This document shows positions 2,714 to 33,089 of a stretch of DNA of 64,000 bases, piece by piece. Every line of letters begins with the position of its first letter. Position 1 is the first letter of the stretch. The stretch is taken from NCBI GenBank assembly GCA_027624035.1, contig JAQBUI010000010.1, positions 24,289-88,288 on the forward strand, in the 5' to 3' direction. The notes under the pieces are model-generated. The model saw only the letters and a list, made by a program, of their open reading frames with translations. It searched no databases and had not been told where the DNA came from. The position numbers were made by a program, and so were the translations under genes. Origin of the DNA: Pseudomonadota bacterium. Its GTDB lineage: Bacteria > Pseudomonadota > Gammaproteobacteria > Pseudomonadales > Azotimanducaceae.

Positions 2714-2800
2714 CCTTGAGCATGCCCGTGCAGGCATGCCGTAGTCGTGCCCGGAAGTTCTCCGGACGACACAGCTTGCGGCCAGAACTTCTCGAAAGCA
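2714..2800 (+). repeat. Palindromic repeat family, copy A
   Basis: ccttgagCATGCCcgtgcaGGCATGccgtagtcgtgcccggaagttctccggac..ccagaacttctcgaaag; matches copies B-F; lies between convergent genes. Confidence 0.8.
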
Positions 2801-2820: not shown

Positions 2821-3906
2821 TTACGGCAGTGAATAGGAGAGCTCAAGCTCCCGGGCGGTGCTGTTGAACCAGTCTACTACCTCACGATGATAGGGGATGC
2901 CCTCGCGCCTGCGCTTCTCGACTTCCTCGTGCTCGATCAGGCCGGCGTAGTACACCCGATCATGCCCCTTGGCCGGCTTCATGTTCGCAAGCCGTTCCAG
3001 CAACACGTCGAGGTCTCCCTTGAACTTTGCCGCATCGACAAAGGCTTCGATCTTCATGGCCATGACAAACTGGGCATTGCTGGCTTCGGCCACAAAGCCC
3101 GGACCATTGCCTGACAGCACCCCCGCCATGATGTCCACAATCGTGGCAAAGCCATAGCCCTTGTGACCACCGTTCTCCCGGGTGCCACCGAACGGCAGCA
3201 TGTAGAAACCACCATAGTTCGGAGCATCCACCGGCTCCATGATCGGTGTGCCGTCCAGCGTCGTGATCCAGCCGGGCTCAAGCTGTGAACCGATTCGACG
3301 GGTCAGCATCATCTTGTTGGCGGCCACCTGGGTCGTGGCAACATCAAAAACAAACGGCGGCATCTTGCCGGCCGGTGCGGCCCACGCGATCGGCTGGGTG
3401 CCGTAAACGGGCTCGGACCCGAACACCGGTACCTGCAGTCTGCCACCGGCGGACACCATGCAGATACCAATCATGTCGTGCTCGAGCGCCATCAGGGTGT
3501 AATAGGCGAGCATCCCGAAGTGGCCGCAATTTTGCAGCGTGACCGCCCCCATGCCGGTTGCCTCGGCCTTTTCGATGGCCATGGTCATGGCACGGGGCCC
3601 GACCTGAATGCCGAGGCCTTTGTCCCCGTCGAGGGTTGCACTGACCGGTGACTCCCGCAGCACCTTGACGTCCGGGCGCGGGTTCTGACGCCCGGCCTTG
3701 TACTGCGCGATGTAGTTGCGCAGCATGTTCGACACCCCATGGCTCTCGCAGCCGCGAAGGTCACTGGTGATCAGCACGTCAGTGGACAGGGCAGCATCTT
3801 CACGGCTCATGCCCATCTTCTCGAAGATTTCCTGGGTAGCCGCTCGTGCGGCCTGTTCACTCACCAGAACCTGATCGGCCTCCGGAACAAGAAATCGTTT
3901 CAGCAT
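2821..3906 (-). CDS. Malate/L-lactate dehydrogenase family (Ldh_2) oxidoreductase
   Basis: MLKRFLVPEADQ...GCESHGVSNM...NCGHFGMLAYY...GGHKGYGFATIVDIMAGVLSG; likely ATG at 3906 preceded by GGAGAGG. Confidence 0.88.
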   Translation of the reverse strand: MLKRFLVPEADQVLVSEQAARAATQEIFEKMGMSREDAALSTDVLITSDLRGCESHGVSNMLRNYIAQYKAGRQNPRPDVKVLRESPVSATLDGDKGLGIQVGPRAMTMAIEKAEATGMGAVTLQNCGHFGMLAYYTLMALEHDMIGICMVSAGGRLQVPVFGSEPVYGTQPIAWAAPAGKMPPFVFDVATTQVAANKMMLTRRIGSQLEPGWITTLDGTPIMEPVDAPNYGGFYMLPFGGTRENGGHKGYGFATIVDIMAGVLSGNGPGFVAEASNAQFVMAMKIEAFVDAAKFKGDLDVLLERLANMKPAKGHDRVYYAGLIEHEEVEKRRREGIPYHREVVDWFNSTARELELSYSLP

Positions 3907-4074: not shown

Positions 4075-4509
4075 ATGAAAATCGAAGCACTGGGACACGT
4101 AGTGATCAAAGTCCGGGACCAGCAGCGGGCCGAGGACTTCTACAACGGCCTCCTTGGCATGCCTATCGTGGCACGAAACGAATCACCCCCCATGACGTTT
4201 TTCTCCATGGGCAATCATCACGATTTTGCCATCATGGCCATTGGCAACGATGCCGGAACCCCTCCCGACGGTACCGTTGGTCTTGCTCATGTCGCCTTCA
4301 AGATCGGCAACCAGTTGTCGGAACTGTCCGCCGCAAGGGACATCCTGACAAAAGCCGGAGTGCGCAGCGCGCCAATTGACCATGAAGTCACGAAATCCCT
4401 GTATCTGTCTGACCCGGACGGAAACCAGGTAGAACTCTATATTGATGCCTCCGATGCATGGAAGACCGAACCGCAGAGGGTTGCCCAGGCATCCCCACTT
4501 GAGCTCTGA
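4075..4509 (+). CDS. VOC/glyoxalase family protein
   Basis: MKIEALGHVVIKVRDQQRAEDFYNGLLGMP...YLSDPDGNQVELYID. Confidence 0.88.
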   Translation: MKIEALGHVVIKVRDQQRAEDFYNGLLGMPIVARNESPPMTFFSMGNHHDFAIMAIGNDAGTPPDGTVGLAHVAFKIGNQLSELSAARDILTKAGVRSAPIDHEVTKSLYLSDPDGNQVELYIDASDAWKTEPQRVAQASPLEL

Positions 4510-4583
4510 ACAGGATGCCTCCGATGCATGCAAGACCAAACTCCAAAGGGTTGCCCAGGCATCCCTACTTAAGCTCTAGCCTG
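4444..4583 (+). repeat. 70-bp imperfect tandem duplication of the VOC gene 3' end
   Basis: gatgcctccgatgcatggaagaccgaaccgcagagggttgcccaggcatccccacttgagctctga followed 70 bp later by gatgcctccgatgcatgcaagaccaaactccaaagggttgcccaggcatccctacttaagctctag. Confidence 0.95.
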
Positions 4584-6856: not shown

Positions 6857-7030
6857 CAGCCTTGAGCGTGCCCGGATCAGGCACGCCGTAGTCGTGCAAG
6901 CAAGTTTCCCGGACTGCACGCCATAGAACAGTACTTCCATGAAAGCCTTGAGCGTGCCCGGATCAGGCACCCGTAGTCGTGCCAGAAAGTACTCACTCTG
7001 GCACCTCGTATCGATGGACTTCCGTGAAAG
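6857..7030 (+). repeat. Palindromic repeat family, copies B1 (6857-6945) and B2 (6946-7030), head-to-tail
   Basis: cagccttgagCGTGCCcggatcaGGCACGccgtagtcgtgc...ttcccggac..acttccatgaaag, immediately followed by a second copy. Confidence 0.88.
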
Positions 7031-8139: not shown

Positions 8140-8161
8140 TGTTCCGATCCTCTTGTCTAAC

Positions 8162-8233
8162 AGCCCTGAGCCCGTCAAAAGCCCTGAGCCCGTCAAAAGC
8201 CCTGAGCCTGTCAAAAGCCCTGAGCCTGTCAAA
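8162..8233 (+). repeat. Four tandem copies of an 18-bp unit agccctgagcc(c/t)gtcaaa
   Basis: Direct reading; abuts palindromic repeat copy C1. Confidence 0.95.
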
Positions 8234-8505
8234 GCCCTGAACGTGCCCGTATCAGGCACGCTGTAGTCGTCCTGGGAAGTTTCCGACGGCACAGCGTCCA
8301 GCCAGAACGCCATCAAAGCCCTGAGCGTGCCATTCTGGCACGCCGGAGTCGTGCAAGAAGGTATTCAGCTGGCGCCTCGTAAACAGTGAACTTCCATGAA
8401 CGCCATGAACCCAAGAGCATGTACAGCCCTCAGCGTATCCGGGTCAGGACGCCGTTGTCCTGCTGGAAAGTTGACCGATCATAAAGTGAGCGCCCGGAAC
8501 TTCAG
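8234..8505 (+). repeat. Palindromic repeat family, copies C1 (8234-8317), C2 (8318-8406) and C3 (8424-8505)
   Basis: gccctgaaCGTGCCcgtatcaGGCACGctgtagtcgt...; gccctgagCGTGCCAttcTGGCACGccggagtcgtgc...cttccatgaacg; cagccctcagcgtatccgggtcaggacgccgttgtcctgc. Confidence 0.82.
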
Positions 8506-15376: not shown

Positions 15377-15460
15377 TTACATGGAAGTTCCGGTCCAACA
15401 CCGTGCCGTCCGGAGAACTTCCCGGCACGACTGCGAGGACACGGGCGAGCCGACGGCTCT
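15377..15460 (-). repeat. Palindromic repeat family, copy D (inverted)
   Basis: Reverse complement reads gtcgtgccgggaagttctccggacggcacggtgttggaccggaacttccatg. Confidence 0.75.
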
Positions 15461-27567: not shown

Positions 27568-28157
27568 GAATCCGCCCAGAGGTCCGCGCGTTTGGTACAG
27601 ACGGCTTCGGCCACGATCCCCAGCTCTGCCAGCAGCCTGCGCAGCGCCGGGACTTGCTGGTCTGCATCACGACCCTGCAATTCCGGCGACACCAGGCACA
27701 ACCGAAAACCTGCTGACGTGAGGCGCCTCGCCTCGTCACCGGTGAGTGGAAATCGAGTGAAGCAGTCGACCCACACCCAATCGACCTTTCCCGCAAGCGT
27801 CAGCGCCGTGTCGATGGATTCGAACTCGGATGCCCGGACTGCAGCCCGCGGCTCCCCAAGATTGGCCCATTTCACGAGAAACGGAAACGACTGGTCCAGA
27901 AAGAAGAAATCATCGATCCCATGGGCGGCCATGCTGTCCAGCAGGGCTCGCTCCAGCCCCTCCTCCTTGACGTTCAGAATCAGGGTGCCGTGACGATAGT
28001 GTTCGATCCACTCGTCAAAGGACGTCCCCGGGGCAAAAGGATCATGATGGATGATCAGGGCATCGCCTCTCGAACGGATATCCACCTCAACGCCGTACTG
28101 CACCGGTGACGCGTCCAGTTCCGCGATGGTATTCAATCGATGCATGATGATCTTCAT
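27564..28157 (-). CDS. Glycerophosphodiester phosphodiesterase-like (PI-PLC/GDPD fold) protein
   Basis: MKIIMHRLNTIAEL...YGVEVDIRSRGDALIIHHDPF...GTLILNVKEEGLE. Confidence 0.65.
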   Translation of the reverse strand: MKIIMHRLNTIAELDASPVQYGVEVDIRSRGDALIIHHDPFAPGTSFDEWIEHYRHGTLILNVKEEGLERALLDSMAAHGIDDFFFLDQSFPFLVKWANLGEPRAAVRASEFESIDTALTLAGKVDWVWVDCFTRFPLTGDEARRLTSAGFRLCLVSPELQGRDADQQVPALRRLLAELGIVAEAVCTKRADLWADS

Positions 28158-29926
28158 GGTGGCACACAACCCTTGAGCGAGTCGACATTGAACACCCGGT
28201 ACTTTTGAGATGTAAAGGCGGTTTCACAGGAATCAAACCCCATCGTCGCACGGCGGTTGACCACCACCCAGTCCAGACGAGCCGATGCCGCCATCGACAG
28301 AAAGTCTGCCGGGTCGTGGGCGTCATAGAATCTGCTGTATTTTTGACCAATCCAGCTTCCCGGCACCGCTGCGAGCGAATCGCTATCGCCATCCACAAGG
28401 GACAGTCGCCGGTCATATTCCAGGAAATGATCTTCCGTAAACGGGAACCCGTTGCCAAAGAAAACGCCCCTGCCGGAGAGGATCGGCAGGGCATAGCGGA
28501 TGTTGCCGAACGGCAGGATGAATACCTCGTCCGGGGCCGTGTGCTCGATCGCAAAGGCAATGAGTTCCCGGTCCAGCTGATCGATTCCACCCAGCCTGTT
28601 GGCCCGACTGTTGTACCCGACTGCCAGCCACGCGACCAGTGCTATCAGGGGCAGGACGGTCCAGACCGGAATCGATCCAAGGAGGCGGGCCGCTGCCAGC
28701 AGCCATGAGCGTGCCCGGGTCCACCGCTCCGTAGTCGTGCCGGGAAGTTTCCCGGACCACACAGCGTGGGGCCGGAACTTCCATGAAGGTACCGGCTCCA
28801 GCCTCGGCGCCGATGTCCTCACCATCATCCGTGCAAGCGGCGACAACAACAGCACCAGCGTGAAGGCTGCCAGAAACCAGGGCCCAAAGGTCATGAATCG
28901 TGCGGGCCCGAGCGCCACCACCGCCTTGACGGGCATGATCTCGACGAACACATACTGCATCAGCAGCGCGCCGGCATACGCCAACAATGCCAGCAATGCG
29001 TTTATCCAGCAGGGGTTACGGGCCCGCCACAGACTGACGGTCAACGCCATGAGCCCCACCATCACCGAACCGAACGACACCCACCAGGGGTAGCTTGTCA
29101 GGGTACCGAACGCGGCGGGCAGGTAGTGGGATGGATGACCCTCGACCACATAGATCCGCACGAATTCGGCGCTGCTGACCGGCTCCGCGGGACTGAACAC
29201 CAGGGCGACCAGCGCCGCTGCAGCAAGTGACGGGGCGAGGCCGGACAGAACCAGCCTGATATTGGGCCGCGGCGCCAAGCCCCTTACTAACAGCACAATG
29301 GCTGCTGCGCTCGTCAACAACCCCATGGCGGGATGAAAAACCGTGCCTGTGAACACCAGCATGCCGCCCACGGCGGCGAAGCGGTGCAGCAGGCAGAAAC
29401 CTGCCAGGGTCAGCAACATACCCAGATTATGGGGCGTTGGATCAAAACCAAGCGGCCGCCACCACGCGACGCTCAGCCAGGCGCCGGCATCGCCCTGCAT
29501 CAGCACCATGGCAGCCAGCGCCAGCAGGCAACCGGGCAGCGCCAGCAGCGGGGCGTCCGGCAGATGCACGCGGGTCACCCGCACCAGGAACAGGACCGCC
29601 ACCATGGGCATCAGCACCAGCATCAGTGACTTCATGATGGTCAGGCCGCCACCGAGGTCCGTCCCTGACCACAATGTCAGTTGGGCAATCAGATAGATGT
29701 AGGGCAGCCGAGGATTCGGGGTCACGCTGGTGCTCGCCAGGAAATCGTTGGCCAGGCAATCCGGGGCCAGCAGCCGACAGACCGCGGGCAGGTTGTCCAC
29801 TGCCGGCCAGGTGAGCGCTGGCGTCAGGGCGTGCTGCGCCAGTACATACAGGGATGCCGACACGGCCACCAGAGGCAGCGCCCGGTTCAACGCGGCTGAC
29901 TCTGTACCGGACAGTGCAACGTTCAC
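28154..29926 (-). CDS. Polytopic membrane protein (glycosyltransferase-like, uncharacterised)
   Basis: Many hydrophobic segments plus soluble C-terminal part; GTG at 29926 overlaps the upstream GT2 stop (GTGA); contains repeat copy E. Confidence 0.7.
   Translation of the reverse strand: MNVALSGTESAALNRALPLVAVSASLYVLAQHALTPALTWPAVDNLPAVCRLLAPDCLANDFLASTSVTPNPRLPYIYLIAQLTLWSGTDLGGGLTIMKSLMLVLMPMVAVLFLVRVTRVHLPDAPLLALPGCLLALAAMVLMQGDAGAWLSVAWWRPLGFDPTPHNLGMLLTLAGFCLLHRFAAVGGMLVFTGTVFHPAMGLLTSAAAIVLLVRGLAPRPNIRLVLSGLAPSLAAAALVALVFSPAEPVSSAEFVRIYVVEGHPSHYLPAAFGTLTSYPWWVSFGSVMVGLMALTVSLWRARNPCWINALLALLAYAGALLMQYVFVEIMPVKAVVALGPARFMTFGPWFLAAFTLVLLLSPLARMMVRTSAPRLEPVPSWKFRPHAVWSGKLPGTTTERWTRARSWLLAAARLLGSIPVWTVLPLIALVAWLAVGYNSRANRLGGIDQLDRELIAFAIEHTAPDEVFILPFGNIRYALPILSGRGVFFGNGFPFTEDHFLEYDRRLSLVDGDSDSLAAVPGSWIGQKYSRFYDAHDPADFLSMAASARLDWVVVNRRATMGFDSCETAFTSQKYRVFNVDSLKGCVPP
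28701..28788 (+). repeat. Palindromic repeat family, copy E, inside a coding sequence
   Basis: agccatgagcgtgcccgggtccaccgctccgtagtcgtgCCGGGAAgtTTCCCGGaccacacagcgtggggccggaacttccatgaagg. Confidence 0.88.
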
Positions 29927-30615
29927 AGCCGCTGCCGAAGCCGGAAGCTGAAGCTCACAGTCCGGCTGATGAACCGCCATTTTCCGCGCCAGTCAACATT
30001 CCAGTGAGACTCGCCGTGGGCCCGGTCCGCGAACAATACCGGGAAGCGATGCACCGCGAGACCAGACCGCTTTGCCAGGCAGTAGAAAAAGAGATCAAGC
30101 GAAAAGTCATCGGGTGGATCTTCGAGGGACTCATAAAAACGTCGGGGAAAGAGGTTTGGCTGGGCATTGATGTCCCATAGTGGCGTCAGCAACAGGATCG
30201 TCTCGAACAGACTCATTCCGACGGTGAACACCACATCTCCAGGCGGCCGACCGTATCGACGCCCCTTCACAAAGATGTTTTCGCCGTGAGTTTCAAACAG
30301 ATGGCATCCTGTAATGACATCAGCAGGGTCGGTCTGCAGATCAGCATGGGTCCAGCCCAGAATCTCTCCCCTCGCCGCCCCGAGGCCAGCTTTGATGCCG
30401 TGGCCATAGCCGCGGTTCTCCACCACCCGGACCAAGCGACAGCCGGGATGCTCGGGCAGCAGACGATCGAGCACCGCGCTCGTGTCATCGGTGGAGCCGT
30501 TGTCCACGATGATGACCTCTGCGTCCATGGCACCGGTTACCTCATCACATCGGGCCAGCAGCCCCGGCAGACTGGCGGCCTCGTTGTAGCAGGGAATGAC
30601 CAGCGATAACCTCAC
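29923..30615 (-). CDS. Glycosyltransferase family 2
   Basis: VRLSLVIPCYNEAASLPGLL...IIVDNGSTDDT...GWTHADLQTDP; GTG at 30615 overlaps the GtrA stop. Confidence 0.88.
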   Translation of the reverse strand: MRLSLVIPCYNEAASLPGLLARCDEVTGAMDAEVIIVDNGSTDDTSAVLDRLLPEHPGCRLVRVVENRGYGHGIKAGLGAARGEILGWTHADLQTDPADVITGCHLFETHGENIFVKGRRYGRPPGDVVFTVGMSLFETILLLTPLWDINAQPNLFPRRFYESLEDPPDDFSLDLFFYCLAKRSGLAVHRFPVLFADRAHGESHWNVDWRGKWRFISRTVSFSFRLRQRL

Positions 30616-31163
30616 GCAGCCTCCCGGAATACGAACCATTTCATGCCCGCAAAATTCAGCGTGGCGGACACCCCAGTGGCCGCAATGAAGGCCGCGGCGA
30701 CCGCCACGTCCTGGCCGATGCTGGCCAGCACAACAAGGCCCACGCCATTGATGAGGACATTGACCGCCAGCGTACCGGCATACAGCGCAATGAACCTGAC
30801 GGCACTACCCCGGGCATGCTGCCGGCCTCCAAAGGTCCAGAATCGATTGACGAAATACGCAAACACTGTGCCGGCGACAAAACCTGCCCCTTTGGCAAGG
30901 TCCACATCCGCAGCCAGCCCGATGACCAGACCACGGTAGATCATGAAGTCCACGATGACCGTCAGCGTGCCCACAATGAGAAAGATGCCCAGCTCTTTTT
31001 TCGGCAGCCTTGAGCGTGCTCGTATCAGGGGGGCCGCTGCCTGCGGCCAGAAGTTGCGTGACAGCCTTGAGCGTGCCCGCATCATGACACGCCATAGTCG
31101 TGCTGGCAGGCCTCCCGGACCGCGCGCCATGGAACAGAACTGATATGACAGCCTTCGTATCAT
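30612..31163 (-). CDS. GtrA-like membrane protein with repeat-derived N-terminal extension
   Basis: FLIVGTLTVIVDFMIYRGLV...GFVAGTVFAYFVNRFWTF...ATGVSATLNFAGMKWFVF; ATG at 31163 overlaps the upstream stop; the first ~50 codons lie in repeat copies F1/F2. Confidence 0.8.
   Translation of the reverse strand: MIRRLSYQFCSMARGPGGLPARLWRVMMRARSRLSRNFWPQAAAPLIRARSRLPKKELGIFLIVGTLTVIVDFMIYRGLVIGLAADVDLAKGAGFVAGTVFAYFVNRFWTFGGRQHARGSAVRFIALYAGTLAVNVLINGVGLVVLASIGQDVAVAAAFIAATGVSATLNFAGMKWFVFREAA
31005..31146 (+). repeat. Palindromic repeat family, copies F1 (partial, 31005-31061) and F2 (31062-31146)
   Basis: cagccttgagcgtgctcgtatcagg... and cagccttgagcgtgcccgcatcatgacacgccatagtcgtgctggcaggcctcccggaccgcgcgcc. 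Confidence 0.8.
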
Positions 31164-32830: not shown

Positions 32831-33089
32831 AATTTCTGCCGTTGTCTGAATCTGGTGACACGAGTCTAAACGATAATGGCTGCACTGGCGTCCGAACGGG
32901 CCGACCAGTGGACTTCATCAGATGCATGGCACCCGGCCGGCGTTTTCATGAAATTCCCGGTCTACACTTTGCACTCCTCCGGTACAACAAACGGCGTACC
33001 TGACACGGGCCGCTGCTGGCATTCAGGGCTCGGATTGGCGCCGGAGCATATAACTAATAGAATCGGCGTCCTACGGGAGGGAGTACAAC

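Follow-up and report, generated by a model that had tools for sequence, protein, structure and literature searches.

The window, i.e., the whole 64,000-nt stretch of DNA that was analysed, carries on its minus strand a gene for a 608-aa polytopic membrane protein (28154..29980), delineated by its ORF and by homologues in two genomes (G049 and G078) aligned over its length. A codon-based start was placed at 29926 instead of 29980, in agreement with the sequence-only reading. The protein alone gave no significant Pfam match, and weak matches to DUF6798 were obtained for two members of the four-protein family alignment. Inside this gene lies copy E (28701..28788, plus strand; HMM boundaries 28702-28787), which is antisense to the host gene and was assigned by BLAST and HMM to subfamily A of a dispersed palindromic repeat of about 87 nt. 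As the sequence-only reading had proposed, copy E falls wholly within an intact minus-strand ORF and leaves its frame unbroken: the ORF reads VPSWKFRPHAVWSGKLPGTTTERWTRARSWLL through the repeat, which encodes residues 398-427 (SWKFRPHAVWSGKLPGTTTERWTRARSW). The segment is part of a loop of 40 residues, including eight basic and two acidic ones, that is flanked by two hydrophobic stretches. By the positive-inside rule, this loop would face the cytoplasm.

About 10 other copies are present in the window. Using nhmmer, single copies were located at 2714..2791 (plus strand) and 15378..15456 (minus strand), two tandem copies at 6859..7028 and three at 8234..8504 (both plus strand), and a degenerate copy at 32945..33020 (minus strand). 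A subfamily C-like copy (31064..31148, plus strand; HMM and sequence) occupies the 5′ end of a GtrA gene. It is adjoined by a shortened tandem copy inside the GtrA reading frame (31007..31063, plus strand), recognised from a match of its 5′ part at 31007-31039, from sequence and from the direct repeat families D1 and D2. Two repetitive tracts of another kind were also seen. A tandem array of the 18-nt unit AAAGCCCTGAGCCTGTCA (8159-8230) adjoins the copies at 8234-8504, and the interval 4444-4577 contains two 64-nt copies, 89% identical and 70 nt apart, that are unrelated to the ~87-nt repeat.

The source genome is a 4.8 Mb draft of 171 contigs. A BLAST search with copy E as query reported 59 places in it, and a 19-nt pattern for the 3′ end of the repeat occurred at 164 places versus 10 for the reversed control. 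Based on these matches and counts, the similarity of copy E to the repeat is not due to chance. The HMM recognised 212 copies in 878 kb fetched around known copies and 35 further copies in 768 kb sampled without regard to copies; the copy number in the genome is in the hundreds. Both ends are fixed across the aligned copies and coincide with the limits of the segment in the host gene. The repeat stands alone at 88 of 138 sites, the remainder being head-to-tail arrays of up to five copies, with 87 nt as the commonest tandem spacing. Three subfamilies are alike over the initial ~40 nt and at the 3′ end and differ in the middle. More than 93% identity to one reference copy was found for 69 of the 151 aligned copies, which points to a recent burst. 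In several contigs (e.g., C39, C83, C125, C37, C31, C53 and C115), one end lies no more than about 110 nt from a copy, so the repeat family appears to cause breaks in the draft assembly.

The repeat unit consists of two hairpin-forming halves and corresponds to 29 codons. The consensus of the young copies, GAGCCCTCAGCGTGCCCGGGTCGGGCACGCCGTTGTCGTGCCGGGAAGTTTTCCGGACGGCACAGCGTGCGGCCAGAACTTCCATGAAAG, folds into two hairpins, the first strong and the second longer and imperfect, and single copies fold with z-scores of about -1.2 to -2.8. RNAalifold gave no consensus structure for 45 diverse copies, which lends no support to a conserved role as RNA. Four of the six frames are open in the young consensus, and among full-length copies a given frame is open in 22-80%, depending on the frame. 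The repeat had no match in Rfam, and no earlier description was found there or in the literature searched by repeat length, which is weak evidence of absence.

The position of the copies relative to genes was assessed with a purpose-written gene caller based on codon usage. Of the 212 copies, 186 (88%) lay outside predicted genes, even though such genes made up 87.7% of the sequence sampled. The earlier statement that the repeat is intergenic elsewhere is therefore right as a rule. Most of the non-intergenic copies touch no more than the end of a predicted gene or a questionable extension at the N-terminus, and only two copies, copy E and one in contig C138, have flanks that both show a clear coding signal in one frame. 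Six further in-ORF candidates (L036, L067, L042, L108, L102 and L045) were not counted, as they resemble N-terminal over-extensions or have a weak coding signal. Orientation relative to co-directional genes was even (46 antisense, 41 same sense), and no enrichment of sites between convergent genes was seen. Among 59 relatives searched, six congeners included and the source genome counted apart, 58 had no match to the repeat. The sole match, in G011, is 26 nt long and gave no hit with the repeat HMM.

In contig C138 (L046), the repeat is found at 3073-3158 inside an ORF of 1093 aa with PHP, polymerase, finger, HHH and OB domains, which identify it as the error-prone polymerase DnaE2. This copy is close to the consensus and is read in a different frame from that of copy E. 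A search of the relatives with DnaE2 gave a match in 39 of 39 genomes, although many of these matches are probably the ordinary replicative DnaE. DnaE2 homologues were aligned (24 sequences, among them four congeners at 72-79% identity), and the repeat-encoded segment GRPGAFHGSSGRTLCRPENFPARQRRDRPGHAEGSHRAGAN, located after LWIP, was absent from all 23 that span the site. A short stretch alone occurs at this position in 21 of them; the other two, L112 and L133, carry an unrelated insert and a shorter one, respectively. The dnaE2 gene thus passes the homologue comparison cleanly: the repeat was inserted in frame. Relative to one congener, the extra segment comprises about 47 residues, of which ~29 are encoded by the repeat; being longer than the repeat, it is not a bare insertion. 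The L112 insert, in DnaE2 of G007, occupies the same site, is about 30 residues long and is rich in His, Ser and Asn. It was rejected as a member of a repeat family because the surrounding DNA occurs once in G007, so insertions of more than one origin are tolerated at this DnaE2 site. At the start of C138, another repeat copy comes after the dnaE2 stop codon, and beyond it a second partial dnaE2, ~97% identical in DNA, begins just past its own repeat (1-301 and 2881-3240 of C138). The repeats may have mediated a tandem duplication here; alternatively, the assembly may have been misjoined at this contig end.

The GtrA-family membrane protein gene of the window (30612..31163, minus strand) was identified by a Pfam match to PF04138 at residues 61-179. 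From the upstream gene to the GtrA domain, ATG starts occur only in the repeat copy 31064-31148, where an ATG pair is located at about 31080-31085. No ATG, GTG or TTG codon is present between the repeat-borne ATG and the domain at residue 61, so, barring a non-standard start codon, translation must begin within the repeat or ahead of it. With that exception, the predicted N-terminus must be repeat-encoded over about 30-45 residues, at least about 30, both adjoining copies contributing to it.

Homologues of the host protein were sought in the 59 relatives and in draws of 369 (class), 392 (order) and 399 (phylum) genomes. Three proteins in two genomes (L010; L070 and L071) and one weak fragment were found. 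Single-genome searches around G078 and G049 gave no further homologue, and none was present in the plasmids and viral contigs searched. The homologues are 18-22% identical to the host protein over the alignment, and invariant family residues lie on both sides of the copy E insert. The distance between the invariant residues 362 and 474 is 112 aa in the host, 107 in L010, 78 in L070 and 76 in L071. Subtraction of 29-30 residues from the host value gives 82-83, near those of L070 and L071. The sequence-only reading had named as support a lack of some 30 residues here in homologues. This is seen in L070 and L071, which are 34-36 residues shorter at the loop, but not in L010, whose loop is unrelated to that of the host and similar to it in length. 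The converse finding, the peptide of copy E in homologues, did not occur in any of the three, distant as they are. Because loop length varies and the relatives are distant, the comparison favours insertion yet is not conclusive, and given 18-22% identity and the similar-length loop of L010, an empty site is not proven for the host gene.

Based on the above results, we suggest that copy E, a small palindrome from a dispersed non-coding repeat family, was very probably inserted into a membrane-protein gene that already existed, and that the host protein, with the copy E peptide in it, is presumably made and working. The foreign character of the segment is also evident from codon usage: the score is +0.21 before copy E, -0.14 within it and +0.19 after it, and values of -0.14 or less were found in only 0.19% of 3147 29-codon windows from long predicted genes. 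It is improbable that the host gene is instead a decaying pseudogene with a frame that is open through the repeat by luck. An open frame is indeed not rare in the repeat, as the frame counts given above indicate. However, the 1.8 kb ORF is uninterrupted, has coding-like codon usage on both sides of copy E, overlaps with the start of the next gene and retains conserved family residues upstream and downstream.

The opposite direction of transfer, in which an ancestral coding segment of the host gene was copied out and spread through the genome, would agree with a segment lying in frame in an intact gene and with the loop of similar length in L010. We consider it very unlikely. The copy E peptide is found in no homologue, all copies have the same two ends, which coincide with the segment limits, and the codon usage of copy E is foreign to the host gene. 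In addition, copy E differs from the majority sequence at 13 positions, four of them rare substitutions, and is at most 88-89% identical to the other genome copies over 87 nt (E 5e-26), whereas 69 of 151 copies exceed 93% identity to one reference; dnaE2 moreover carries the repeat in another frame. The common ends of hundreds of copies, the differences of copy E, the foreign codon usage and the absence of the peptide from homologues support the host gene as the target of the repeat and not its source. An assembly artefact joining sequences from different places at the repeat is equally hard to credit, since, for all the contig ends that fall on the repeat in this draft and the possible join of this kind at the start of C138 (dnaE2 end, repeat, second partial dnaE2), copy E and the internal dnaE2 copy are each flanked on both sides by one gene in a single frame, an arrangement that would not arise from a chance join, and copy E is diverged and unique in sequence.

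For the insertion of copy E, we propose the following scenario. Because the unit comprises 29 codons and the frame in use is open in copy E, the reading frame would have been kept, and the host gene would have stayed intact while gaining ~30 residues. The gained residues would sit in a basic loop of variable length between two hydrophobic segments. Most insertions into genes may be removed by purifying selection, and the few that survive would preserve the frame and be located in tolerant loops or at N-termini. Since an 87-nt unit keeps the frame and frames are open in 22-80% of copies, survival in a tolerant loop would require no special device.

As for the mode of movement, no target-site duplication was detected in 26 single copies (flank-to-flank common substring of 4.19 versus 4.11 in shuffled pairs), and no terminal inverted repeats were seen by eye in the aligned ends; neither of these MITE features was thus detected in the repeat. 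No transposase linked to the repeat was found. Three Y1_Tnp genes were identified; two have no repeat within ~1.5 kb, and the third is flanked by an unrelated palindrome, with a partial repeat copy ~180 nt away. A RAYT link is not supported by these surroundings. Among the Y1 transposase genes, L137 (C117, about 1155-2025) is RAYT-like and has on both sides its own palindrome, TTACTCCGGCACTTTACTCCGACCCC, which is unrelated to the present repeat. Our best guess is that the repeat may move in a REP-like manner, in trans, by means of a separate enzyme.

Among known systems, Coxiella MITEs QMITE1 and QMITE2 include some in-frame insertions in ORFs (PMC5896051). The present repeat is like them in being small, non-autonomous, mostly intergenic and in some cases in frame, and unlike them in the target-site duplications and terminal inverted repeats considered above. 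GTAG- and CGTC-tagged REPs have been found in frame inside ORFs of several non-rickettsial species, with DnaE2 named as a host (Di Nocera et al. 2013, PMC3733652). The same survey warns that N-terminal intragenic cases may be start-codon errors. REPs (PMC3733652) and the present repeat are both high-copy dispersed palindromes that are mostly intergenic, with a few in-frame copies (20-30 aa for REP dimers), DnaE2 hosts and many apparent N-terminal insertions, and both are often clustered. However, REPs are single hairpins of 20-40 bp with a GTAG or CGTC tag at the end, whereas the present unit is ~87 nt long with two hairpins, has GTAG only internally, in older copies, and mostly ends in GGAG, AGAG or TGAG. 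REP dimers are mainly in opposite orientation and not head to tail, and GTAG-type REPs are linked to flanking RAYT genes, a link not demonstrated here.

The RPEs of Rickettsia, reportedly described by Ogata and colleagues in 2000 and 2002 and cited in PMC5896051 and PMC3733652, are said to be palindromic selfish DNA in frame in unrelated proteins. The present repeat can be likened to them by description, as palindromic DNA inserted in frame in unrelated proteins over ~30-50 residues. In-frame insertion into an otherwise conserved protein is seen in the dnaE2 alignment and, in part, in the membrane-protein gene of the window. Unlike RPEs, the repeat is mostly intergenic, its intragenic copies are rare, and its frame differs between the two internal cases. 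The comparison with RPEs made in the sequence-only reading is apt, but the event is less unusual than was implied there, because in-frame REP insertions outside Rickettsia have already been published (PMC3733652). As far as checked, the repeat family is new, and in-frame insertion itself is already known. A broader proposal would treat the repeat as a new class of mobile palindrome, tolerable in coding sequence through its 87-nt, 29-codon unit, head-to-tail tandem growth and several open frames. As such, it would keep supplying new protein segments (in dnaE2, at the N-terminus of GtrA and in the membrane protein) and would also give rise to rearrangements, for example the partial duplication of dnaE2 between two copies. 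We regard this proposal as doubtful.

An independent, lineage-specific family thus joins the short list of palindromic repeats that lie in frame within intact protein genes. Such an insertion is again found in DnaE2, an error-prone polymerase that had been noted before as a repeated host (PMC3733652), and this recurrence may reflect either a tolerant loop in the PHP domain or insertions being favoured there.
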